15,176 nucleotides of DNA, taken from positions 1-15,176 of the forward strand of contig CATPAO010000074.1 in assembly GCA_955652025.1 (NCBI GenBank), in the 5' to 3' direction. Made by a program: the position numbers and the translations under genes. Positions 1,469 to 14,619 of the stretch are shown here, piece by piece. The notes beneath the pieces are model-generated. The model saw only the letters and a program-made list of their open reading frames with translations, was not told the DNA's origin and searched no databases. The stretch's first letter is position 1; every line of letters begins with the position of its first letter. The stretch is from Casimicrobiaceae bacterium. Lineage in GTDB: Bacteria; Pseudomonadota; Gammaproteobacteria; Burkholderiales; Casimicrobiaceae.

Positions 1469-4453
1469 TCAGGCAGTGCGACGCTCGAGCGCCAGTGCGG
1501 CCGCGGCGGCATCGTCGCGCGTCATTGCGCGCCCGGATTCGTACTCGCGCTCGAACGCCGCACCGTGCGCGACGCGCACCGATGCGCGCCAGCGATCGAC
1601 GTCGGCGCGCTCGGAAGGGAACACAGGCGCATTGCGCGCTTCGCGCATCGCCGCCGCAGCGCCGAGAAGGCGCGGCGCGACGGACGCCCCCGGATGCGTA
1701 CCGGCGATGGCCTCGAGCAAACCCGGCAGGAAGGTATCTTGCGACGCTTGCACGACCTCGCGCAGACCCTCGAAATACCCGCGCGTCGCCGCCGCGCGAT
1801 CGCCGCCCGCCTCGTAGCTGCGTCCCGCGAGCCACAATGCGCCCGCCCGGTTGTGATGAAACCCGAGCTGCGCCTGCACCGCCGCCGATTCCTCCGCATG
1901 GCGAAGCGCAAGCCGATGATCGCCCATCGCGTGCAGCACCTCGGATTGAACGAGCGTCGAGCGCGCGCCGCAATTGGGATCGTGCAGCGCGCGGAAGATC
2001 GTCGCGCTTTCCTCGCTCGCACGTAACGCCGCCGCGAGATCCCCGGCATTGAGGTCGAGCTTGGCGAGCGCGCGCAGCGCGGTGCCCGCGTCATGTACGT
2101 TGCCGAGCCGGCGGTGCTCGGCCAACGCTTCGTTGAGCAGCGTTCGCGCTTCGTCGAAGGCGAAGCGGTCGACCGCGCACTGTCCCGCCCACGTCCGCGC
2201 CAGCGCCTGCATCACCACGCAGCCGCCGCGATCGAAATGCGACGCGCTTTCCAGAAACAGTCGTTGTCCCTCCGCCGGGCGGCCTCGCAGCATCTCGGCG
2301 AGAGCGAAGTGCCACATGGCGAAGCCGATGCCCCACGCGTGGTCGATCGACCGTGAAAGGGCGAGGCCCTTCTCGGCCATCGACGCGATGAAAGCGGGCC
2401 CCTCCGCATCGAGCGCGCACGCGCGCCATAGCGTCGCCTCGGCTTCGCGGCGCCTGTCCAAGAGGCGGCGCGCAAGCGCCGCCGTGGCATCCAGCAAGTC
2501 GGCGCTGTATTGCCGCTTGTCCAGGCGATACGAGAGGGCACCCGTTCCGAGCAGCGCCTTGAGGCGAGCCGGATCCTCGGCCTGATGAATCGACACCGCA
2601 CGTTCGAGTCGCTCGAATCCTTCGATGAAGTGTCCGCGCATGTCCCAGAACTCGTGCAGCGAGCCGGCGAGACGGGCGTAGCCCTGTGGGTCCGCGTCAG
2701 CCGCCCAATCGAGCGCGGCGCGCAGGTTGTCGTGCTCGGCCTCCAACCGGTCGAGCCATTCCAGCACCGTCGGGCGGCGGAGCTCCGGCTCCGCGCGTTC
2801 GGCGAGGTCGAGGAAATACGCGAAATGACACCGCCGGGCGGCATCTGCGCGATCCGCCTCGACCAATTTCTCGGCCGCATACTGGCGAATCGTTTCGAGC
2901 ATCCGGTAACGCGTTTCGGCGTTGCGGTCGTGGTCCGCGACGAGCAGCGATTTGTCGACCAGGCGCCCAATCGCGTCGAGCACCGTGGATTCGCCTAGCG
3001 CCGAGGTTGCGCAAACATGGAGGGCGGCGTCCAGCGTGAATCCACCGGCGAATGTCGCGACGTTCATCAGCACGGCGCGCTCGTCACCGGACAAGAGGTC
3101 ATAGCTCCAGTCCACGAGGGCGCGCAACGTTCGCTGCCTCGGTAGCGCAGTGCGCCGTCCCCCGGTCAGCAACCGGAAGCGGTCGTCGAGGCGCGTTGCC
3201 AATTCGCCGACCGAAAGCGCAGTCATTCGCGCGGCCGCCAACTCGAGCGCCAGCGGGATGCCGTCGAGTCGCCGGCAGATTTGCGCGACGGCGTCCGCGT
3301 TACGTTCCGAGAGCGCAAAATCGGCAACGACCGTCTTCGCGCGTTCCGCGAACAATTGAACGACCTCGCTCTCCATGGCCGTTCGCAAAGTCGCCGCCGC
3401 ATCGGCGGCGGGCAACGTCAGCGACGGTACGCGATAGACGAACTCGCCCTCGACGCCGAGCGCCTCGCGGCTCGTGGCGAGAATGTGGAGCTCGGGCAGC
3501 GCGCGTAGCAGCGCCTCCGCGATTCGCGCCGCTTCGTCGACGATGTGTTCGCAGTTGTCGAGCAACAAGAGACTGCGCTTTCCGGCGAGCGTCCCTTCGA
3601 CTTGCGCCAGCGCCGGGACATCGCCTTCCGCGCGCGTGCCGAGCGCCGCGGCGATCGACTGCGCCATTTGCGCCGGATCGGCAAGCGAGGCGAGCTCGAC
3701 CAACCACACGCCGTCGGGGAACGTGTCCTGCAGCGCCGGGGCGGCTTCGAGCATCAGGCGCGTCTTCCCGGTCCCTCCCGATCCGGTCAACGTGACCATC
3801 CGCGATCCGCGCGCATGCGCCCTCGTCTCGGCGAGGGCGCGGTCGCGGCCGACGAAGCTCGACAGCGCCGGCGGCAGATTCGTGCGAAGCGCTTCGCGCG
3901 TGTGGATCGGCGGAAACGCGGCGCGTAATCCGGGCGCGACGAGCTGGTAGAGACGTTCCGGTCGCGCGAACCCGCGGAGCGTGTGGTCGCCCAAGTCGCG
4001 CCACGATGCGCCCGCAGGCGATTTCGCTTCGAGGAGCGCGATCGTCGAGGCCGTGACGAGGATCTGCCCGCCGTGCGCGGCCGCCATCACCCGTGCGGCG
4101 CGCGCCAGCGTGGGACCGCGGAAGACCTCATCGGTGGCGCTTTCCGCGGTACCCGAATGCAGACCCATGCGCACGCGGATCGTCGCGCCGTCCCAGCGTT
4201 CGTTCGCGAGCGCGCGCTGCGCGTCGATCGTGGCCAGCACGGCCGAATCGGCGTCGGCGAACGCGACGCAGAACGCATCGCCGACGACGCGAAACGCCTC
4301 GCCGCCTCGCGCATCTATCGCGCGACGCAGAAGCGCATTGTGCCGCTCCGTGGCGGCCCGCATCGCGGCGGGATTTTTGTCCCACAGCGGCGTGCTGCCT
4401 TCGATGTCGGTGAACAGGAAGGTGAGCGTCCGCTGGCAAGCGGGGGCGGACAT
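1469..4453 (-). CDS. Class III cyclase domain / NB-ARC-like ATPase / TPR regulator
   Basis: The product is 994 residues with no signal peptide, so it is probably a cytoplasmic signalling or regulatory protein. Residues 8-170 form a class III nucleotide cyclase domain with TFLFTDIEGST (metal Asp16), VVGDAFCVAF (metal Asp59) and ARAARVMAAAHGGQ (Arg121 kept). Residues 195-500 form a STAND/NB-ARC-like ATPase with Walker A GSGGTGKT at 224-231, Walker B LLLLDN at 295-300 and the sensor-like ATSRE at 326-330. The rest, about 560-994, is helical and alanine-rich and looks like TPR repeats. No LuxR-type HTH is visible at the C-terminus, unlike many relatives. Three canonical cyclase positions differ: Arg55 for Lys, Val110 for Asp and Ala117 for Asn, so cyclic nucleotide synthesis is doubtful. 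The ATG at 4451-4453 has only a weak upstream GGAC and lies 18 nt after the binding-protein gene, suggesting co-transcription. Confidence 0.87.
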   Translation of the reverse strand: MSAPACQRTLTFLFTDIEGSTPLWDKNPAAMRAATERHNALLRRAIDARGGEAFRVVGDAFCVAFADADSAVLATIDAQRALANERWDGATIRVRMGLHSGTAESATDEVFRGPTLARAARVMAAAHGGQILVTASTIALLEAKSPAGASWRDLGDHTLRGFARPERLYQLVAPGLRAAFPPIHTREALRTNLPPALSSFVGRDRALAETRAHARGSRMVTLTGSGGTGKTRLMLEAAPALQDTFPDGVWLVELASLADPAQMAQSIAAALGTRAEGDVPALAQVEGTLAGKRSLLLLDNCEHIVDEAARIAEALLRALPELHILATSREALGVEGEFVYRVPSLTLPAADAAATLRTAMESEVVQLFAERAKTVVADFALSERNADAVAQICRRLDGIPLALELAAARMTALSVGELATRLDDRFRLLTGGRRTALPRQRTLRALVDWSYDLLSGDERAVLMNVATFAGGFTLDAALHVCATSALGESTVLDAIGRLVDKSLLVADHDRNAETRYRMLETIRQYAAEKLVEADRADAARRCHFAYFLDLAERAEPELRRPTVLEWLDRLEAEHDNLRAALDWAADADPQGYARLAGSLHEFWDMRGHFIEGFERLERAVSIHQAEDPARLKALLGTGALSYRLDKRQYSADLLDATAALARRLLDRRREAEATLWRACALDAEGPAFIASMAEKGLALSRSIDHAWGIGFAMWHFALAEMLRGRPAEGQRLFLESASHFDRGGCVVMQALARTWAGQCAVDRFAFDEARTLLNEALAEHRRLGNVHDAGTALRALAKLDLNAGDLAAALRASEESATIFRALHDPNCGARSTLVQSEVLHAMGDHRLALRHAEESAAVQAQLGFHHNRAGALWLAGRSYEAGGDRAAATRGYFEGLREVVQASQDTFLPGLLEAIAGTHPGASVAPRLLGAAAAMREARNAPVFPSERADVDRWRASVRVAHGAAFEREYESGRAMTRDDAAAAALALERRTA

Positions 4454-5644: not shown

Positions 5645-7099
5645 CTACGACAATCGAATCGGCACGTAGATCTGCCGCCCGTCACGCTCGATCAAAAGCG
5701 CGATGCTCTTGCCCGCCTTGTCGACGTGCTTCTTGAGCTCGTCGAGCGTCGTCACTTTCGTCGTACCGACACCGACGACCAGGTCGCCGGGCTGAATGCC
5801 GGCCCGCGCCGCGGGTCCGGTCGCATTTTCGACGACCAGGCCGTCGTGGCCGACTTCCTTCTTTTCGTCCGGCGTCAGCGGACGCAATGCGAGACCGAGC
5901 CGGCCCTTGTCCTGCTTTCCGTCGTCCGCCTTCGCGACCTTATCGTCGTCGAACGTGCCGACGGTCGCGTTGACCGTCGCGGGCCTGCCATCGCGCCAAA
6001 CCTCGATCGCGATCTTGGCGCCGGGCGCCGCGTTGCCGATCCGGCTCGTGACGTCGGTGCTGTCGTTCATCGCGACACCGTCGATCTTGCGGATCACGTC
6101 GCCGGTCTTGATGCCCGCCTTTTCCGCCGGGCTCCCCTTCTCGACGGTGCCGACGAGCGCGCCGCCCGAATCCGGCAAGCCGAAGCTTTGCGCGAGCGAT
6201 TGGTCGAGCGGCTGGATGCCGACACCGAGCCGGCCATGGCTCACTTTGCCGTGCGTCTTCAGTTGATCGGCGACCTTGGCCGCGACGTCCGCCGGTATCG
6301 CGAACGACAATCCCATGAATCCACCCGAGCGACTGTAGATCTGCGAATTGACGCCGACGACTTGTCCGGCCGTGTTGAGCAGCGGGCCGCCGGAGTTGCC
6401 GGGATTCACCGCGACGTCGGTCTGGATGAACGGTGTCATCTGGCCGCCCGGCAGCGCACGATGCACGCCGCTCACGATGCCGGCCGACACGCTGTTCTCG
6501 AAGCCGAATGGCGAGCCGATCGCGATCACCCATTCACCTTGCCTGACGCCGGGCGGCGCCGAGAGGTCGAGCGCCGGAAGATTCTTCGCGTCGATCTTGA
6601 TCAGCGCGACGTCGGTGCGCTTGTCGGAGCCGACGACTTTCGCGGTGAACTCGCGGCGGTCGGTCAGCTTGACCGTCACTTCGGTCGCGCCGTCGATGAC
6701 GTGCGCATTGGTGACGATGTAGCCGTCGGGGCTCACGATGAAGCCGGAACCCAGGCCCTGCGACGGCACCGAGCGCGGTTGCATGTTCGGCGCGCCGAAG
6801 CGTTTGAAAAATTCGCCGAGCGGGCTGTCCGGGTCGACGTCGTCCGGGTCGAAGCCCGCGACCTTGGTCTTGCCGATGACACTGATGTTGACGACGGCGC
6901 CGCCGGCCTTCTCGACCAACGCGGTGAAATCGGGCAAGCGCGCCGCGGCGGTACTGGAAACGGCGGGAGGGGCCGCGGGTGCCGTCACCGCCGCGCGTGC
7001 GTCGGCAAACGGCGTGCCGTCGAATCGCATGTAACCGGTGGCGAGCGCGGCGCCGATGCCGGCCGCAGCCAGTGCGTAGGAAATCCTGGAAAGTTGCAT
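5645..7099 (-). CDS. Do-family serine endopeptidase (DegP/HtrA/MucD type)
   Basis: The product is 484 residues. It is an envelope protease and chaperone that degrades or holds misfolded periplasmic proteins. An N-terminal hydrophobic segment (about residues 5-23) serves as signal or anchor. The trypsin-like domain shows the full catalytic triad: His133 in TNAHV, Asp163 in RTDVAL and Ser236 in GNSGGP. Two PDZ domains follow, at about 275-370 (GRLGVGIQPL ... GIKTGDVI) and 395-484 (GRLGLALRPL ... GIQPGDLV), the DegP/MucD arrangement. I chose the ATG at 7097-7099, which has AGGAG 7 nt upstream. An alternative start at 7144 would sit about where transcription begins, given the -10 element at 7150-7155. 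The gene has its own promoter with a PmrA/QseB-type box and its own terminator, so it is probably monocistronic and under control of the two-component system encoded at 12342-14552. Confidence 0.95.
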   Translation of the reverse strand: MQLSRISYALAAAGIGAALATGYMRFDGTPFADARAAVTAPAAPPAVSSTAAARLPDFTALVEKAGGAVVNISVIGKTKVAGFDPDDVDPDSPLGEFFKRFGAPNMQPRSVPSQGLGSGFIVSPDGYIVTNAHVIDGATEVTVKLTDRREFTAKVVGSDKRTDVALIKIDAKNLPALDLSAPPGVRQGEWVIAIGSPFGFENSVSAGIVSGVHRALPGGQMTPFIQTDVAVNPGNSGGPLLNTAGQVVGVNSQIYSRSGGFMGLSFAIPADVAAKVADQLKTHGKVSHGRLGVGIQPLDQSLAQSFGLPDSGGALVGTVEKGSPAEKAGIKTGDVIRKIDGVAMNDSTDVTSRIGNAAPGAKIAIEVWRDGRPATVNATVGTFDDDKVAKADDGKQDKGRLGLALRPLTPDEKKEVGHDGLVVENATGPAARAGIQPGDLVVGVGTTKVTTLDELKKHVDKAGKSIALLIERDGRQIYVPIRLS

Positions 7100-7149: not shown

Positions 7150-7182
7150 AATATAAGGTTCGCGGCTTAACCGACGCTTAAG
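7150..7182 (-). promoter_or_regulatory. HtrA/DegP promoter with PmrA/QseB-type response-regulator box
   Basis: On the plus strand 7166-7171 reads CTTAAC and 7177-7182 reads CTTAAG, separated by 5 bp (11-bp periodicity), which matches the PmrA/QseB-type box. Read on the minus strand, the box is followed by exactly 10 bp and then the -10 hexamer TATATT (7155-7150). The box covers the -35 region, where no good sigma70 -35 hexamer exists, so the promoter should depend on an activator. Transcription would start near 7143, giving a leader of about 44 nt. The same layout occurs at 14587-14619. Confidence 0.72.
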
Positions 7183-7194
7183 AGTCGGTGCAAG

Positions 7195-7223
7195 TTGCTA
7201 CGGCCGACGTTCGCGGCGAGAAT
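7195..7223 (+). promoter_or_regulatory. Weak candidate promoter of the ABC transporter-deoC operon
   Basis: TTGCTA (7195-7200) and GAGAAT (7218-7223) are separated by 17 bp, and each matches the sigma70 consensus at 4 of 6 positions. It lies about 80 nt before the first operon gene and 12 bp beyond the response-regulator box of the divergent protease promoter, so the regulator could also affect it. This is only a weak match in GC-rich DNA. No other promoter for the operon stands out in 7183-7301. Confidence 0.22.
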
Positions 7224-7301
7224 GCCGTGGGTTCCGGCGCGCTTGCGAGGGGCCAGACAAAGCCAAGACCGATATTGGCCGCCACGATCGGAGGAAATGC
7301 C

Positions 7302-8339
7302 ATGACCGTCGCCGCACTTTGGGCCTGCCGGACGCTTCGTGTCGCCGCGCCTCTCCTGGTGTCGTGCCTCGCACTGGGCGCCGCGCCGGCGATCGCCGCG
7401 GACACGTTGAATGCGTATTCGATCTGGCCCGAGAACTGGGCGCGGCCGATGTTCGAGGAATTCGAAAAAGCGACCGGCATCAAGGTCAACTTCATTCGCT
7501 TTTCGTCCGGCGAAGCGCTTGCGCGTGTGATGGCCGAAAAGAACAATCCCCGCGTCGACGTGCTGTTCGGCGGCCCGGTCGAGACATTCGCAGCCGGCAT
7601 CGCCGAGGGAGTGTTCGAGCCGTACAAGCCCGCGTCTTTCGCGAAGCTGCCGCCGCGCTTCAAGCAGCCGGACGGGCAATGGGTTGCGATCGCCGACGAT
7701 CCGCTGGTGTTCATGACGAACGAGAAATTCTTGAAGGAAAATGCCCTCAAGGCGCCGGCCTCGTGGAACGACCTCCTGAATCCGGCGTACAAGAACATGC
7801 TGCAGATGGCCGACGCGCGGACGTCCGGCACGGCGGTCACGCGGATATTTTCGGTGCTCGAGGTCAATGGTCGCGACGAGGCCAAGGCGTTCGACTATAT
7901 GAAAAGGCTGCGGCCGCAAGTGCAGCTCTATACCAAGAGCGGCGGCGGCGGAACGCTTCCCGTCGGTCTCGGTCAGGCCGGCGGCGGCATATTTTTCATC
8001 GTCGACGCGCTCGACACGAAGGCCAAGGGCTATGACGTGACGATCAGCTTCCCGCGCGAAGGCATCGGCACGGCGGCCGAGGGAATCGCGCTGATCAAGG
8101 GTGCGAAAAACCCGGTGGAGGCGAAGAAGCTGATCGATTGGGCGACGTCGCCGGCGATGCAGGGACTATTCGCGAAATACAAGATCAACTTCGTCCCCGC
8201 ACATCCCGACGTGGCGCTGGAGCCGAGCCTGGCCGAGGTGCTGAAGGGGGCGAAGATATTTCCGATCGACGCCGACTACGCCGGCGCGAATCGCAAGCGG
8301 ATCGTCGATCGCTGGGTCGCCGAAGTTCTGAATCCCTAG
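7302..8339 (+). CDS. ABC transporter substrate-binding protein (AfuA/FbpA-like, COG1840 type)
   Basis: The product is 345 residues. It is a periplasmic binding protein that delivers a ligand to the permease encoded next. The signal peptide spans about residues 1-32, with cleavage near AIA-ADT; the internal LVSC (Cys22) resembles a lipobox but is followed by more hydrophobic sequence, so ordinary cleavage looks likelier. Characteristic stretches are TLNAYSIWPENW, a SSGEALARVMAEKNNPRVDVLFGGPVETF segment, and the later GGGIFFIVDALDTKAKGYDV. These resemble AfuA and 2-aminoethylphosphonate-type binding proteins. No adjacent Tyr-Tyr pair typical of the FbpA ferric site is seen, so iron is not the favoured ligand. 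I chose the ATG at 7302 because GGAGG (7290-7294) lies 7 nt upstream; longer in-frame readings lack both this site and a signal peptide. The stop overlaps the likely permease start by one base. Confidence 0.9.
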   Translation: MTVAALWACRTLRVAAPLLVSCLALGAAPAIAADTLNAYSIWPENWARPMFEEFEKATGIKVNFIRFSSGEALARVMAEKNNPRVDVLFGGPVETFAAGIAEGVFEPYKPASFAKLPPRFKQPDGQWVAIADDPLVFMTNEKFLKENALKAPASWNDLLNPAYKNMLQMADARTSGTAVTRIFSVLEVNGRDEAKAFDYMKRLRPQVQLYTKSGGGGTLPVGLGQAGGGIFFIVDALDTKAKGYDVTISFPREGIGTAAEGIALIKGAKNPVEAKKLIDWATSPAMQGLFAKYKINFVPAHPDVALEPSLAEVLKGAKIFPIDADYAGANRKRIVDRWVAEVLNP

Positions 8340-10039
8340 TGCAGGGTCCTCACCGTCATGGCGATGCCGCCGCACCGCACAGAGACGTCGCGGTCGGCGT
8401 GACAGTGGCGGTGTTGTGGCTGCTGTTGGCACTGTTCGTCGTCTATCCGCTGACGATGCTGTTCGCGCGCATGGTAAGCGGCGGCGGTGGCATCGATCTT
8501 CCCGCTGTCGCTGCGCTGCTGACCGATCGGCATCAGCTTCGCGCGTTCTGGAACAGCCTCCTGTTGGCATTCTTGGTCGGCGTCGTCGGGACTCTGGCGG
8601 GATTCCTGTTCGCGTTCGCCGCGGCGCGCTGCCGGCTGCCGCGCTGCGTCGTCACGGCAATCGACGCGAGCGTGCTGTTGCCGCTCGTTTCGCCGCCGTT
8701 CACCACGGCGATCGCGTTGATCTTTTCGTTCGGACCGCGCGGGCTCCTGACCTACGGCGTGTTCGGCATCAAGGGATTCAGCGTCTACGGCCTCGGCGCG
8801 ACGCTCTTTTCCGAGGCGCTCACGTATTTTCCGATCGCGTGCCTGACGCTTCGCCCGATCCTCGCCGCGATCGATTCCAACATCGAAGGCATGGCGCAAA
8901 GCTTGGGCGCATCGCGCGCCCGCGTTTTTCGGACGGTGACGCTTCCACTGTGCGCACCAGGGATCGCAAACGCCTTCCTGCTCCTGTTTGCCGCTTCGCT
9001 CGCTGATTTCGCGACGCCGCTGATTCTCGCCGGCAACAGCTTCCCAGTGTTGCCGACGCAAGCGTATTTGCAAATCACCGGGTTGTTCGACTTGCGCGGT
9101 GGTGCCGTGCTGTCGTTCGCATTGCTCGTGCCGGCGCTCACCGTTTTCCTGCTGCAACGTTATTGGGTGGGGCGGCGTTACTACGTCACGATCACGGGCA
9201 AAGGCGCCGGCCAGACGCCATTCGACAGCATCTCGCCCGGCGGCCGCATCGCGCTCCTCGCCGTCGCGGCGGCAATCGCCGTCATCGTCCTGTATTTCTA
9301 CGCGTTGCTCCTGTACGCATCGCTGGTCGTCGCGCTGGGTGCCAACCACACGCCGACACTTTCGCACTACCGGACAATTTTCACCGACGGCTGGAAGGCG
9401 ATCCGCGACACGCTGATCATCGCCGGCATCAGCATGCCATTGGGCGGCCTGTACGGGATCGTGCTCGGTTATCTCGTAACGCGGCACCGGTTTCCCGGCC
9501 AGCGCACGATGGAGGCCGTCTCGATGATCAACTATGCGCTGCCCGGCACGATCGTCGGCATCGCCTACCTCATTGCGTTCAACGATCGGCCGCTGGTATT
9601 GACCGGCACCGCGCTGATCATTATCGCGTGCTACGTATTTCGCTACGGGCCGACCGGAATCCGCGCGACGGTCGCGCTGCTGCAACAAATCGACCCGAGC
9701 CTCGAGGAAGCGTCGCAGGGGCTCGGCGCGCGCAGCGGGACGACGTTTCGGCGTATCACGCTGCCGTTGATCATGCCGGCGTTCTTCGCTGGCCTCGGCA
9801 TCGTGTTCATCCGCTCGATGACCGCGATCAGCGCGACGATCTTCCTGGTGTCGATCGGGTGGACGCTTATCACGGTGAGGATCCTGGAGAACATCACGGA
9901 GCTCTCGCTCGGGCCCGCGGCCGCGTTCTCGGTGCTGGTGGTCGTGATCGTGTTTGTCGTCATCGCCGCGGTGAGCCGCGTGCTGCGATTGCTCCGCGCG
10001 CCCGGTGCCGCGCCGATGGTCAGCCTTCTCGGAGGATAG
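8339..10039 (+). CDS. Fused double-domain ABC permease (FbpB/AfuB-like)
   Basis: The product is 566 residues when read from the GTG at 8339-8341, the expected size for a permease with two fused membrane domains and about 12 helices. Each half carries an ABC-importer EAA loop that contacts the ATPase: EGMAQSLGASRARVFRTVTLP at about 183-203, and EEASQGLGARSGTTFRRITLP at about 456-476. DFATPLILAGNSFPVLPTQAY after the first loop is typical of the FbpB/AfuB group. The start is uncertain. GTG 8339 overlaps the upstream TAG, which suggests coupling, but there is no clear ribosome binding site. GTG 8399 is in frame just before the first membrane helix and overlaps the TGA of a 14-codon frame beginning at ATG 8358. 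The gene forms one importer with its neighbours and ends 4 nt before the ATPase start. Confidence 0.92.
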   Translation: MQGPHRHGDAAAPHRDVAVGVTVAVLWLLLALFVVYPLTMLFARMVSGGGGIDLPAVAALLTDRHQLRAFWNSLLLAFLVGVVGTLAGFLFAFAAARCRLPRCVVTAIDASVLLPLVSPPFTTAIALIFSFGPRGLLTYGVFGIKGFSVYGLGATLFSEALTYFPIACLTLRPILAAIDSNIEGMAQSLGASRARVFRTVTLPLCAPGIANAFLLLFAASLADFATPLILAGNSFPVLPTQAYLQITGLFDLRGGAVLSFALLVPALTVFLLQRYWVGRRYYVTITGKGAGQTPFDSISPGGRIALLAVAAAIAVIVLYFYALLLYASLVVALGANHTPTLSHYRTIFTDGWKAIRDTLIIAGISMPLGGLYGIVLGYLVTRHRFPGQRTMEAVSMINYALPGTIVGIAYLIAFNDRPLVLTGTALIIIACYVFRYGPTGIRATVALLQQIDPSLEEASQGLGARSGTTFRRITLPLIMPAFFAGLGIVFIRSMTAISATIFLVSIGWTLITVRILENITELSLGPAAAFSVLVVVIVFVVIAAVSRVLRLLRAPGAAPMVSLLGG

Positions 10040-10043
10040 CCGT

Positions 10044-11156
10044 ATGACCACCGCAGCGATGGGTGTCGACGTCGACCGCGTGTCCAAGCGCTTCGCGCAT
10101 CGCGTGAGGGGCGAGGTCTATGCGGCGCGCGACGTCACATTGCGGGTGCCGGCCGGCGAGTTTCTGACGCTGCTCGGTCCATCCGGCTGCGGCAAGACGA
10201 CGACGCTGCGGATGATCGCCGGATTCGAACGGCCCGACGCCGGCAGCATCCGCTTCGGCGGCGAAGAGGTGACCGGGACGCCAGCCAATCGGCGCAACAT
10301 CGGCTTCGTGTTCCAGAATTACGCGTTGTTTCCGCACCTGACGATTTTCGAAAACGTCGCTTACGGGCTCCGCGTGCGCGGCGAGCCGGCGCCGAAGATT
10401 GCAAGCGCCGTCGGCGAAGTCCTTGCGCTCGTCGGACTGGCGGGCCACGAGCAGCAGTTCCCGGCGCAGCTCTCGGGCGGCGAGCAGCAGCGCGTCGCGC
10501 TGGCACGCGCGATCGTGATCCGGCCGCGCGTCCTGTTGTTCGACGAACCGCTCTCCAATCTCGACGCCAAGCTGCGCGTGCAAATGCGGCGCGAAATTCG
10601 CGATCTGCAACGGCGGCTCTCGATCACGACCGTGTACGTCACACATGATCAGGAAGAGGCGATGGCGGTGTCGGATCGGATCGCGGTGATGAACCACGGC
10701 AACGTCGTGCAGGTCGGGACCGCGGCCGATTTGTACCACCGCCCGGAAACGGAATTCGTCGCGCAATTCGTCGGCCGCGTGAACCTGATCGCGGGCCGCG
10801 CGCTCGCGTTCGACGGGGATACGGCGAGAGTCGCGCTGCCCCACGGCGAGATCGTAACGCGCGCCACGTCGACCCGCGCCGAGCCGGGGGAGCAGGTGCA
10901 GATCGCACTGCGGCCGGAAGCGATCGAATTGATACGCGACGACGGTCCGCGCGATGCGACGGTGCTTTCGAGCACGTTTCTCGGCGACAAGATCGAGTAT
11001 CTGGTGCGCTGGAACGGCCAGACACTGCAGGTCGCGCGCTTCAACGCGGGACCGGCGGCGCAGCTCCAGGACGGCACCCCGGTGACGGTGCGCTTCGCTG
11101 CCGACGCCGCGATATTGCTTCCCGTGCAATCCGACGCTCGAAACCCCGCGCCATGA
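10044..11156 (+). CDS. ABC transporter ATP-binding protein (FbpC/PotA-like)
   Basis: The product is 370 residues. It is the cytoplasmic ATPase that powers the importer. All nucleotide-binding motifs are intact: Walker A GPSGCGKT (45-52), Q-loop Gln91 in [13 protein letters not shown], signature LSGGEQQR (143-150), Walker B VLLFDE (163-168), D-loop SNLDAK and switch His201. After about residue 240 a C-terminal TOBE-type domain follows, including [11 protein letters not shown], as in the spermidine/ferric/phosphonate importer subfamily. I chose the ATG at 10044, with GGAGG at 10031-10035 and 8 nt spacing; this ribosome binding site overlaps the end of the permease gene. An in-frame ATG at 10005 lies inside the permease gene and has no such site. 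The last codon overlaps the next gene (ATGA, 11153-11156). Confidence 0.95.
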
Positions 11157-11680
11157 AGCGCGCGTGCGTATCCCGCATCGCCGCGACGTGCTTTGTTTTC
11201 CTGGGTCTCGCGATCGACCCCCGCATGCCGAGCGTCGCGGCGGAGTCGTCGCAGCAAGTTCATGGCAGCGCCGACGTTTACAGCGTGCCGGGCGTCGCGC
11301 TTGCCTGGGGCGTCTTGCGTGGCGCGGACGAGGCGACAACCACGGTCGTGGTCCGCATCGTCGCCGACGGCAACGCGTTTCCGTGGGTTGGCGTCATTGG
11401 CAGCGATCCGTTCAGCGACCACAAGCAGACGTTGTTGGCGACAACGAAGATCGACAGGGGTGTTGACGTGCGCGCGTCGCGCCAACAGTTCGGAGACTTT
11501 CCACGCACGGAGATCCGGTTCTACGCGTCCGCGAGTGCGGTGGCGGACGACAGACCACAGCTGGCGGTCTACTTCCTCGGCGTTCCCGACACGACGCCGG
11601 AGTTCACGACCGCGTCGGCACTCGATCGATATCTGGCCGACCGTATCGAGCGCGCTCTCGCTGCCAAGGGGGCGCCATGA
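11153..11680 (+). CDS. Unknown exported protein in the ABC transporter-deoC operon
   Basis: The product is 175 residues and I do not recognise the family. An N-terminal signal peptide is visible: [10 protein letters not shown], then the hydrophobic ATCFVFLGLA, with likely cleavage after SVAA at about residue 30. The mature part of about 145 residues has alternating hydrophobic segments (GVALAWGVL, TTTVVVRIVADG, PQLAVYFLGVP) that suggest a beta-rich fold. It ends in a charged helix (DRYLADRIERALAAK). It has no membrane segment after the signal and no cysteine in the mature part. The start overlaps the ATPase stop and its own stop overlaps the deoC start (ATGA both times), so it is clearly translated as part of this operon. 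A periplasmic accessory role, for example in processing or presenting the transported compound, is inference from position only. Confidence 0.8.
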   Translation: MKRACVSRIAATCFVFLGLAIDPRMPSVAAESSQQVHGSADVYSVPGVALAWGVLRGADEATTTVVVRIVADGNAFPWVGVIGSDPFSDHKQTLLATTKIDRGVDVRASRQQFGDFPRTEIRFYASASAVADDRPQLAVYFLGVPDTTPEFTTASALDRYLADRIERALAAKGAP

Positions 11681-12345
11681 CGAGGAACGAGCTGGCGCGG
11701 ATGATCGATCACTCCGTGCTGAAGCCCGAGGCGACCGAACGCGACATCCGCGCTGGTGCGGATGTCGTGCGCCAGTGGCGGATCGGTTTCTATTGCGTGC
11801 AGCCGTATGGGGTCGCGCTCGCAGTCGAAGCGCTCGCGGGCGCCGACGCGTCGGTGGTGTCGGTCATCGGCTTTCCGCACGGATGCGACCGGAGGGACGT
11901 CAAGGCGCGCGGCGCCGTGTTGGCCGTTGCGGAAGGCGCGCGCGAAATCGACATGGTCCTGAATTTCGGCGCACTCAAAAGTGGAAACGCAAAGGTGGCA
12001 GCCGACGAAATTGAAGCGGTCGTGCGCGAAGTGCCCGGTATCCCGGTAAAAGTGATTCTCGAGACCGGCGCGCTCACCGATAGCGAAAAACTTCTCGCCT
12101 GCCGGCTGACACGCGACGCCGGCGCGTCGTTCGTCAAGACATCGACGGGATTCCACGCCGCGGGCGGCGCCACGATTGCCGACGTCCGATTGCTGCGCAC
12201 AGCGGTCGGACCGGATTTCGGCGTCAAAGCCTCGGGCGGTATCCGCACGCTTCCCGATGTGCGCGCGATGATCGCCGCCGGCGCCGATCGCATCGGAACG
12301 TCGGCCAGCGTGGAAATTCTCGGCGCGTTGTCGGCAACTGATTAG
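11677..12345 (+). CDS. deoC: Deoxyribose-phosphate aldolase
   Basis: The product is 222 residues, the length of the short bacterial DeoC type. The enzyme reversibly splits 2-deoxy-D-ribose 5-phosphate into acetaldehyde and glyceraldehyde 3-phosphate in the cytoplasm. The class I aldolase active site is complete: the Schiff-base Lys154 in FVKTSTGF, the second Lys184 in VKASGGIR and Asp92 in EIDMVLNFG. IDHSVLKPEAT near the N-terminus and VSVIGFPHG at 62-69 are also typical. The ATG at 11677 overlaps the preceding stop (ATGA), and a purine-rich AAGGGGG lies just upstream. No deoA, deoB, deoD or deoK partner lies in the window; deoC is instead the last gene of an import operon, which hints that the imported compound yields deoxyribose phosphate or a related sugar phosphate. 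Its stop shares bases with the convergent kinase stop. Confidence 0.95.
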   Translation: MTRNELARMIDHSVLKPEATERDIRAGADVVRQWRIGFYCVQPYGVALAVEALAGADASVVSVIGFPHGCDRRDVKARGAVLAVAEGAREIDMVLNFGALKSGNAKVAADEIEAVVREVPGIPVKVILETGALTDSEKLLACRLTRDAGASFVKTSTGFHAAGGATIADVRLLRTAVGPDFGVKASGGIRTLPDVRAMIAAGADRIGTSASVEILGALSATD

Positions 12346-13670
12346 GCGGTCGGCGACGGAAAGCGGACCGTCACGACGAGTCCGCTGCCCTGCTCCGGAT
12401 CGCGGAGCGAGATCGCGGCCTGGTGCGCGTCGGCGATCCGCTTAACGATCGACAGCCCCAGCCCGCTGCCGGGCTCGCTGTTGCCGGAGCCGCGATAGAA
12501 ACGATCGAACACGCGCTCGCGCTCTTCCGCCGGGATGCCCGGACCGGTGTCAGCCACTGTGAGCACCGCCGCGCCGTCTTCGTCCTCGACGGCGACGTCG
12601 ACGCGTCCGCCGGGCGGCGTATACCGAAGCGCGTTGTCGAGCAAGTTGGACAGCAGCGTCGACAGACTGGCGGAGTCGCCGCGCACGCGCACCGGCGCCT
12701 CGCGCGCGAGGCCGAGGTCGACTCCTTTGTTCGCGGCCAACCCGCCGCGCGCCACGATCGCTTCCTTGGCCAGCGCGACAAGATCGCAGTCGGCGGCGCG
12801 GGTCGCGAGCGCCCCGGGCTCGATACGTGCAAGCGTCAACAATTGCTCGACCAAGTGCGAGGCGCGCGCGACGCCCGCATCGAGATCGCCGAAGGCGGCG
12901 GCGCGGGCCGAGCCGTCACTTGCCCGGCGCGCGACGTCGAGCTGCAGCTTCAGCGCGGCCAATGGCGTACGCAATTCGTGGGCGGCCTCGGCGGTGAAGC
13001 GGCGCTGCGCGGAGAGCGCCGCATCAAGGCGCGACAAGAGGTCGTTCAAGCTCACCGCGAGCGGCTGCAGTTCCTCCGGCATTGCGCGTTCGGTGAGCGG
13101 CGCGAGCGCGTCGGGACGGCGCTTCGCCACCGCGCGCGACATCGCGTAGAGCGGCCGCAATCCCCTTCCGACCGCAAACCAAATCAGTGCGCCGAACAAC
13201 GGCAGGAGCACGACGAACGGCAGCAGTGCGCGCACCGCGGTGTTGGTGGCGATCGCTTCGCGCTCGTCCTGCGCTTGTGCGACCTGCAGTGCGTGCGAGC
13301 CTTGCACCAGCGTGTACACGCGCCAGTCTCGATCGTTCCGGTGCACGGTCGCGTAGCCGGGCGTCGCCGGTATCGGCAGTCCGGTCCCCGGCTGCGACCA
13401 ATAGACGAGCACGCCATCGTGATCCCAGATCTGCGTCACGAGCTCGGTAACCCCTTCACCCGCAGCGGCCGAGCGGGGATCGAAGCCCGGCTGGCGTCCG
13501 CGCAGCAGGTCGTCGATCCGTGTCGAATACGCGAGCTGCTTCAACTGCAAATCGAGGAGCTCGCCCACTTCGTAGCGCGCCGCGATGTAGGTCGCCCCGC
13601 TCGCGAGCGCGCCGATCGCGATCAGTCCCGCAAGCAGCCAGAATAGAAGCGTTCGCCGGATCGACGTCAT
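12342..13670 (-). CDS. Sensor histidine kinase (QseC/PmrB-like)
   Basis: The product is 442 residues. It is an inner-membrane sensor kinase paired with the response regulator encoded upstream. The first membrane helix is at about residues 8-30, then a periplasmic sensor region of about 120 residues (31-148), a second helix at about 149-168, and a HAMP-like linker starting GRGLRPLYAMSRAVAKR. The dimerisation/phosphoacceptor domain has His231 in AAHELRTPLAAL. The ATPase domain has the N-box SNLLDNALRY, G1 DTGPGIP (374-380), the F-box FDRFYRG and G2 GSGLGLSIV. I chose the ATG at 13670, directly before the first helix, with a GGGGG-like site upstream. The frame stays open 60 codons further back, through a hairpin-rich repeat, but that part reads like non-coding sequence. 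The stop TAA shares bases with the deoC stop (TTAG at 12342-12345). Confidence 0.93.
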   Translation of the reverse strand: MTSIRRTLLFWLLAGLIAIGALASGATYIAARYEVGELLDLQLKQLAYSTRIDDLLRGRQPGFDPRSAAAGEGVTELVTQIWDHDGVLVYWSQPGTGLPIPATPGYATVHRNDRDWRVYTLVQGSHALQVAQAQDEREAIATNTAVRALLPFVVLLPLFGALIWFAVGRGLRPLYAMSRAVAKRRPDALAPLTERAMPEELQPLAVSLNDLLSRLDAALSAQRRFTAEAAHELRTPLAALKLQLDVARRASDGSARAAAFGDLDAGVARASHLVEQLLTLARIEPGALATRAADCDLVALAKEAIVARGGLAANKGVDLGLAREAPVRVRGDSASLSTLLSNLLDNALRYTPPGGRVDVAVEDEDGAAVLTVADTGPGIPAEERERVFDRFYRGSGNSEPGSGLGLSIVKRIADAHQAAISLRDPEQGSGLVVTVRFPSPTA

Positions 13671-13679
13671 TGGTGGACC

Positions 13680-13725
13680 CCCACGCTTGCGGCTCGCACC
13701 GCCGCGCTGCCCCCAGAGGGGGAGC
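13680..13725. repeat. Probable Burkholderiales-type intergenic repeat with C5/G5 hairpin
   Basis: The run CCCACGCTTGCGGCT followed by a CCCCC-AGA-GGGGG hairpin (13710-13714 with 13718-13722, extended by GCT/AGC with one bulged G) matches, from memory, a dispersed element common between genes in Burkholderiales. It ends a few bases before the histidine kinase start codon. No second copy was found in this window, so the repeat status rests on recollection and must be confirmed by genome search. Confidence 0.5.
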
Positions 13726-13767
13726 AATTCGCACCGCGGGGTAGTGACGCGAGCAGCCGGCGAGGGG

Positions 13768-13782
13768 CCCCGCAACGCGGGG
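13768..13782. repeat. Small perfect hairpin in the regulator-kinase gap
   Basis: CCCCGC (13768-13773) pairs perfectly with GCGGGG (13777-13782) around an AAC loop. No T tract follows on the minus strand, so it is unlikely to stop transcription completely. It may slow transcription or protect the mRNA between the regulator and kinase genes. Confidence 0.5.
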
Positions 13783-13797
13783 ATCGACGGCCAATGC

Positions 13798-13820
13798 GAG
13801 TCGGCACACGAGGCCGACTC
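13798..13820. repeat. 8-bp perfect inverted repeat in the regulator-kinase gap
   Basis: GAGTCGGC (13798-13805) and GCCGACTC (13813-13820) form a perfect 8-bp stem with a 7-nt loop. In the minus-strand transcript it comes about 73 nt after the response-regulator stop codon. Without a following T run it is not a standard intrinsic terminator. It could partially attenuate kinase expression relative to the regulator. Confidence 0.6.
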
Positions 13821-13892
13821 CCGCCGCAACGATTCTGTTCGCACATCCAAGGAGGCCGAGGCCCGGCGGCGCTCATCGATACTCCGCTCGCA

Positions 13893-14552
13893 TCATGTCA
13901 ACGCGTAACCGACGCCGCGAATCGTGCGGATCGCGTCGGGTCCGAGCTTCTTGCGCAGATGATGGACGTGCACCTCGACGGCGTTGCTCTCGACTTCCTC
14001 GCCCCACCGGTAGATGCGCTCCTCCAGTTGGGCCTTCGATAGCGCGGCGCCGGGACGTTCGAGCAACGCCGCCAGCAGCGCGAATTCGCGCGCCGACAGG
14101 TCGACCGGCTTACCCTCGTGCGAAACCGTGCGCGCCGCGGTGTCGAGCGCAAGTGTCCTGTGACGCAGGACGTTGTCCTCGCGCGCGACGTCGCGACGAA
14201 GGAGCGCCCGCATCCGCGCCTGCAATTCGTCCAGGCTGAACGGTTTGGTCAGGTAGTCGTCGGCGCCGGCGTCGAGACCCGCGACGCGGTCGGCAACGGC
14301 GTCGCGCGCGGTGACGATCAGCACCCGCACCTTGTTGCCGGCACGCCGCAGCTCTTTAAGGAGGTCGAGGCCGCTTTTTTTCGGCAGGCCGAGGTCCAGC
14401 AGGACCAACGCGTACGCGTCGCTCGCCGTGTCGAGCGCAAGACGGCCGGCCTGACCATCGGTAACCCAGTCGACCGCGTAACCGTCCTGCTGCAGCGCCT
14501 GCTGCAGCGTCTTGCCGATCATCGCGTCGTCCTCGACCAACAGAATCCGCAT
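13893..14552 (-). CDS. OmpR-family response regulator (QseB/PmrA-like)
   Basis: The product is 219 residues, standard for the OmpR/PhoB class. The receiver domain has Asp8-Asp9, the phosphoacceptor Asp53 in LLDLGLP, Thr81 and Lys103 in TKPF. The winged-helix DNA-binding domain spans about 125-219. Its recognition region RWGEEVESNAVEVHVHHLRKKLG and the ending IRGVGYALT are characteristic of QseB/PmrA/BasR-type regulators. I chose the ATG at 14550-14552. The longer in-frame start at 14588 would lie inside the -10 element (14587-14592) and can be excluded if that promoter is right. A matching CTTAA-type box precedes the gene, suggesting autoregulation, and a second one precedes the protease gene. 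The kinase follows after a 222-nt hairpin-rich gap, which is unusually wide for a regulator-kinase pair. Confidence 0.95.
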   Translation of the reverse strand: MRILLVEDDAMIGKTLQQALQQDGYAVDWVTDGQAGRLALDTASDAYALVLLDLGLPKKSGLDLLKELRRAGNKVRVLIVTARDAVADRVAGLDAGADDYLTKPFSLDELQARMRALLRRDVAREDNVLRHRTLALDTAARTVSHEGKPVDLSAREFALLAALLERPGAALSKAQLEERIYRWGEEVESNAVEVHVHHLRKKLGPDAIRTIRGVGYALT

Positions 14553-14586
14553 CGCGTCCGTCCGAGACGTGCATGGGCGTCGCCGC

Positions 14587-14619
14587 ATTCTAGCCGCGGC
14601 GGCTTAACCGGGACTTAAA
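14587..14619 (-). promoter_or_regulatory. Response-regulator promoter with PmrA/QseB-type box (autoregulation)
   Basis: On the plus strand 14603-14608 reads CTTAAC and 14614-14619 reads CTTAAA, separated by 5 bp. On the minus strand the box is followed by exactly 10 bp and then TAGAAT (14592-14587), a -10 hexamer with one mismatch to TATAAT. Spacing and orientation are identical to the protease promoter at 7150-7182. Transcription would start near 14580, giving a leader of about 28 nt before the ATG at 14552. Confidence 0.75.

Follow-up and report, generated by a model that had tools for sequence, protein, structure and literature searches.

The stretch of DNA analysed, here called the window, is the whole of a 15,176-nucleotide contig (G000:C74) from a draft genome of 2,775,195 bp that is 66.9% complete. 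It carries genes for a periplasmic-type serine protease and for both partners of a two-component system, together with two promoters of like design; the coordinates of these features are collected in Table 1.

Table 1. Genes and promoter elements of the window, with strand and the basis on which each gene product was named.
Feature	Position	Strand	Basis
DegP/HtrA-type (Do family) serine protease	5645..7099	-	profile and Pfam searches
Protease promoter -10 hexamer TATATT, 10 bp past the box	7150..7155	-	
Protease box CTTAAG-N5-GTTAAG, two direct half-sites 11 bp apart	7166..7182	-	
ABC transporter (binding protein, permease, ATPase), 175-aa hypothetical protein, DeoC-like aldolase	7302..12345	+	
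Sensor histidine kinase, QseC/PmrB-like core	12342..13670	-	profile and Pfam searches
PmrA/QseB-like OmpR/PhoB-type response regulator	13893..14552	-	profile, Pfam, alignment
Regulator promoter -10 hexamer TAGAAT, 10 bp past the box	14587..14592	-	
Regulator box TTTAAG-N5-GTTAAG	14603..14619	-	

The protease start was read by eye as the ATG at 7099, which is preceded by a ribosome-binding-like AGGAG. Against the Do-family profile TIGR02037 the product scored 470.1 bits, above the cut-off of 416.2; Pfam searches returned PF13365 and two PDZ stretches, and the catalytic histidine, aspartate and serine motifs (TNAHV, DVALIKI and GNSGGPL) are intact. A frame of 994 codons on the minus strand (1469-4453) looks by eye like a cyclase-type domain with an ATPase regulator after it; in G008 (L079), the closest relative, it has kept its neighbours, the TctC gene and the end of the protease gene.

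The response regulator consists of a receiver domain (PF00072) and a Trans_reg_C domain (PF00486). A sequence-only reading of the window had assigned it to the PmrA/QseB family, and the assignment stood as a resemblance: the protein scored 244.7 bits against the PmrA equivalog (cut-off 330) and 232.4 bits against that of QseB (cut-off 345), and by these scores it resembles PmrA and QseB while being a member of neither equivalog. When it was aligned to the solved PmrA/BasR chains 4s04 and 8jo2, most of the DNA-contact residues of PmrA were found to be kept; N188, V192, H193, H195, R198 and R210 are the same, and three contact positions are changed (T187S, N196H and E199K). The available parts of two PmrA papers describe N188, V192, H193, H195 and R210 as DNA-contacting residues or likely determinants of base specificity (PMC4660055, PMC3973317). 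Across 25 related regulators the recognition helix mostly reads SN[AT][VI]EV[HY]xHxLR[KR]KL, the second histidine being replaced by serine in two (G013 and G001).

No Pfam sensor domain was found in the window's kinase; that of G312 gave a sub-threshold match to 2CSK_N. The AlphaFold model of the window's kinase has a mean pLDDT of 65, and its periplasmic part is of low confidence (pLDDT 32-74). The gap between the regulator and kinase genes (13672-13890) contains a dispersed repeat with at least 46 matches in the same genome, a lower bound obtained by scoring 40 of 118 candidates; most of these matches are about 62 bp long, and one spans 200 bp at 89%. On the other side of the regulator, and divergent from it, lies a DUF4331 gene (PF14224; 14733-15176), which occupies the same place in G008 (L076).

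Read along the minus strand from 7182 to 7150, the protease promoter is CTTAAG-CGTCG-GTTAAG-CCGCGAACCT-TATATT; the regulator promoter, from 14619 to 14587, is TTTAAG-TCCCG-GTTAAG-CCGCCGCGGC-TAGAAT. The sequence-only reading had described this common design, and on re-reading its coordinates, letters and 10-bp gaps proved exact for both promoters. Its half-site pattern HTTAAD needs one correction: read strictly, it does not admit GTTAAG, the second half-site of both boxes, as G is not H. That no other such pair occurs in the 15 kb was likewise borne out, these two sites alone having zero mismatches in the window; at up to three mismatches the box has six matches there, against 2.5 expected, and 13 of 200 shuffles reach six. 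The window is 67% GC and holds six TTAA tetramers, four of which build the two boxes. In 1000 dinucleotide-preserving shuffles, TTAA-N7-TTAA occurred at a mean of 0.004 and never twice. When the whole draft genome was scanned with YTTAAG-N5-GTTAAG-N10-TANNNT, a pattern composed after both sites had been seen, exact matches were found at just these two sites, and at up to two mismatches there were five matches against one for the reversed control. The shared promoter design is far beyond chance. Since on the other strand no TANNNT was seen by eye 10 bp past either box, bidirectional use of the boxes was dropped, and neither the transporter genes nor the DUF4331 gene, which run divergently, are counted among the targets.

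Comparison of the protease promoter across related genomes revealed that the box is conserved before orthologous proteases. With at most one mismatch to YTTAAG-N5-NTTAAG, it lies upstream of the protease in 12 of 12 loci of the genus, the window included (71-100% identity), and in 10 of 18 distant loci (49-55% identity). The exact box with its -10 was matched 19 times in 22 genomes of the genus, against a single reversed-control match; 15 of these matches stand before the protease, two before the regulator, one at a contig end and one elsewhere. In 64 genomes of the family, among them the same 22, there were 31 matches against three in the control, divided between DegP (19), response regulators (4), contig ends (2) and other places (6). 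Among 300 sampled genomes of the order, at least 12, from seven further families, carry the box directly before DegP, as judged by eye among the matches listed; the occurrence of the pattern in 89 of the 300 genomes among the matches listed, many of these away from DegP, is not taken as a statistic. The box without a -10 is hardly enriched, with 32 matches against 26 in the reversed control for the 22 genus genomes (13 of the 26 come from two genomes), and is thus unusable by itself as a genome-wide predictor; because the box alone is weak, the case rests on box plus -10, on place and on conservation. This conservation marks the protease box as a phylogenetic footprint.

The two promoters might nevertheless resemble each other by coincidence, or the boxes might be AT-rich -35-like elements and nothing more, given that the match was noticed post hoc in one window and that box-only genome counts lie near the reversed control. 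The shuffles and the genome counts speak against such an explanation, as does the recurrence of the box ahead of one and the same gene across many species whose spacers have diverged, and coincidence is already contradicted by conservation across families; we consider this explanation exceedingly improbable.

The position of the -10 relative to the box was assessed in 40 distinct DegP boxes, which had been selected by at most one half-site mismatch, so that their half-site letters are fixed by construction. TA...T was found at offset 10 in 28 boxes and at offset 11 in five; none of the remaining offsets between 4 and 17 had it. For seven of the 40 boxes, the locus had originally been picked up with a pattern that included a -10; in the other 33, from protein-only loci, TA...T lies at offset 10 in 25 and at 11 in two, and the remaining six have CA...T at offset 10 by eye. 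While the 5-bp spacer and the 10-bp gap differ widely among species, the place of the -10 is constant. The box lies one turn before the -10 and over the -35, which is the position of a class II activator site; with 10 bp between the second half-site and the -10, a bound dimer would cover the -35 region.

Regulators of the PmrA/QseB type are able to repress as well as to activate, and position alone is compatible with interference with polymerase. The box might then be an operator for repression, or for an unphosphorylated activator, with the protease derepressed and not activated upon a signal. Yet the fixed one-turn distance before the -10 is that of PhoP class II activation, and no consensus -35 independent of the box was seen by eye, which leaves control of this kind improbable beside activation by the phosphorylated regulator.

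Ten regulator orthologs of at least 78% identity were found in the genus, nine with readable upstream DNA. Within these nine the self-box has at most one mismatch in four and two in three, and none was detected at that level in the other two. A promoter-proximal half-site was recognized by eye in all nine, reading NTTAAG in seven and CCAAAG or GCAAAG in two; by eye again, it precedes TAGAAT or TATAGT by 10 bp in eight orthologs and by 11 bp in one, and the distal half-site departs from NTTAAG in five of the nine. In a wider set, the regulator box was present at up to one mismatch in 4 of 15 readable promoters. On these comparisons autoregulation appears likely in the window's species and plausible across the genus; it is not an order-wide feature, the self-box being mostly absent outside the genus.

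The relation between box and kinase was examined in 57 DegP loci picked by protein similarity alone, 30 from a search for relatives and 27 from an order-wide DegP list. The box, at up to one mismatch, was present in 23 of the 25 loci that have a related kinase within about 1.5 kb upstream, two lacking it, and in 10 of the 32 that do not (Fisher p 2.9e-6, not corrected for relatedness of loci). In 8 of 12 genus loci, 100-191 bp lie between the end of the kinase match and the protease and, where the contig extends far enough, the regulator precedes the kinase. Regulator, kinase and protease follow one another in this order on one strand in 16 of 20 wider loci, 13 of them chosen by pattern matches near DegP and seven taken from the first search for relatives; the DegP box is present in 19 of the 20, a count biased by how the loci were chosen.

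The window preserves this gene order, though with other genes in between. The divergent ABC transporter cluster and the DeoC-like gene separate kinase from protease in the window and in G008 only, among the genus loci read; in G007 and G010 the two genes flank an open frame of about 1080 codons. The protease retained its box promoter in all four split loci, so that its control would survive a break in the locus. The simplest history suggested by these arrangements is that the protease is an old partner of the two-component system, with a promoter of its own.

One further promoter of this kind was found in the window's genome, where a one-mismatch match (C375:5797) and the gene that follows it, encoding a subtilisin-like S8 protease (PF00082), are 46 bp apart. 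The gene is placed at G000:C375:5797-7245 (locus L004, 1501-2949), and its product has a signal peptide by eye. Its ortholog in G008 (82% identity) is preceded by CTTAAG-CTTCT-CTTAAC-N10-TACATT and that in G076, of another genus, by CTTAAG-GCCCG-CTTAAG-N10-TACAAT; of the 19 orthologs whose start could be read, 16 have no box at up to two mismatches. With the pattern widened to admit the known subtilase sites, whose zero mismatches are for that reason not independent evidence, the perfect matches in G000 are those before DegP, regulator and subtilase; in G008 the DegP and subtilase sites are perfect, and the regulator site and one further site have one mismatch. The same three promoters are thus among the best matches in both genomes. 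Two-mismatch matches to the widened pattern are noise, as at that level the reversed control exceeds the matches (7 against 6 in G000, 29 against 6 in G008). The predicted regulon in this lineage comprises two serine proteases and the system itself. The sequence-only reading had foreseen a regulon of the pair and the DegP-type protease; sequence conservation and the kinase link argue strongly for the protease arm, whereas the self arm appears to hold in the species and its closest relative and is weak beyond them.

Other matches in G000 were rejected as targets: one on C58 (a single mismatch, with CAAAAT where the -10 should be; by eye the next gene resembles one for a TRAP-type solute-binding protein), one on C140 (two mismatches; next gene by eye for a PepSY-like protein) and one on C186 (two mismatches). 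In genus g6, the box and -10 occur upstream of genes that look by eye like efflux periplasmic adaptors (L137, L138) and also of regulators with 51-52% identity (L133, L135), and these sites suggest a paralogous system with the same type of box. In G024 (L128) they precede a gene that looks by eye like one for a c-type cytochrome, with a related regulator about 1.5 kb further on; in G018 (L090) they precede a gene that by eye looks to encode a cytochrome b561-like protein.

As paralogous regulators share the box type, the box by itself is no proof of the acting regulator's identity. The protein that mainly binds it might be another PmrA/QseB-type paralog, or there might be several such paralogs, with something else under the control of the linked pair; the window's regulator has 22 matches in its own genome, the same box stands before the g6 regulators, and the boxed DegP loci without a nearby kinase would fit such an arrangement. 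Set against this, the box accompanies the linked kinase, 6 of the 10 exceptions have a related regulator gene within 10 kb (G000, G007, G009, G010, G016 and G324), and the window's pair bears the box on its own promoter. Control by a paralog is unlikely on this evidence, although it is the most credible of the alternatives to control by the linked pair.

We propose a module made up of regulator, kinase and a DegP locus behind the box promoter. The kinase would sense an envelope signal and, as its family suggests, phosphorylate the PmrA/QseB-like regulator; a regulator dimer would then bind the two direct TTAAG half-sites, a site defined by conservation, one helical turn apart, and its place over the -35 region suggests that it would recruit RNA polymerase as a class II activator. 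The main conserved target would be the DegP-type protease, and in the window's lineage the box lies also on the pair's own promoter and, elsewhere in the genome, on that of the subtilisin-like protease, presumptive additional targets. Because the same box stands before the pair and the protease, and is kept in relatives, it is very likely that the two-component pair switches the protease on directly. We hold the full scheme to be probable: once phosphorylated, the regulator would occupy the tandem half-sites across the -35 region and switch on the protease gene and, in this lineage, its own.

On a broader scale, a PmrA/QseB-type system may serve throughout the Burkholderiales as a dedicated periplasmic-protease switch, with DegP the sole widely kept target and its promoter inside the system's own locus, and with single lineages having added envelope proteases such as the subtilisin-like one; we give even chances to such a minimal Cpx-like response that survives gene separation. 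The protease box provides a precise, conserved candidate operator for DegP control in an order with many soil bacteria and some pathogens, and the very small predicted regulon is directly testable. It would also help to explain why the regulator-kinase-HtrA cluster recurs, and how control can outlast the break-up of a locus when the target carries its own box. PmrA/QseB-type regulators are best known for surface modification; if the proposal is true, they would serve envelope protein quality control as well.

A comparable unit has been reported from Burkholderia cenocepacia, where, in the available parts of the reports, a six-gene cluster includes the two-component system BCAL2831/BCAL2830 and the HtrA protease BCAL2829 (PMC5295037, PMC2902503); a BCAL2831 mutant was affected in the cluster's transcription, and expression of HtrA did not complement it (PMC5295037). 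Those parts describe no operator. So far as those parts go, a two-component/HtrA unit is therefore already known, and regulator, kinase and HtrA lie together there, in the order found in 16 of the 20 chosen relatives' loci; unlike in that cluster, the window's protease stands apart from the pair, and the two are likened by gene content. Among the open-licence papers listed, no title or opening of an abstract concerned an operator before DegP/HtrA in Burkholderiales, and no report was found of its conservation or of a small regulon.

In the available parts of the PmrA papers, which concern polymyxin-resistance genes (PMC4660055, PMC3973317), Salmonella PmrA boxes are given as CTTAAG-N5-XTTAAT. 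The window's system is like PmrA/BasR and QseB in its tandem TTAA half-sites 5 bp apart and in a near-identical recognition helix, and unlike them in its sub-cut-off scores, its periplasmic protease target and its tiny predicted regulon.

CpxAR of E. coli is a two-component system that controls degP, and its regulon is broad. The role of CpxAR, which the sequence-only reading had invoked, holds as an analogy only: the window's regulator reaches 118.8 bits against a CpxR cut-off of 341 and its kinase 104.1 bits against a CpxA cut-off of 486, and the box is a different one.

The PhoP half-site, too, has other letters. In position, however, the window-type promoters resemble the architecture-I promoters of Salmonella PhoP, for which the available part of the source describes one direct box about a helical turn (11-12 nt) before the -10, overlapping the -35, with class II activation predicted for the group and shown for mgtA (PMC3335776). 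There, a distance of 12 nt allows activation, whereas 7 or 17 nt does not (PMC3335776); the corresponding distance is 10-11 here against 11-12 nt in those promoters.
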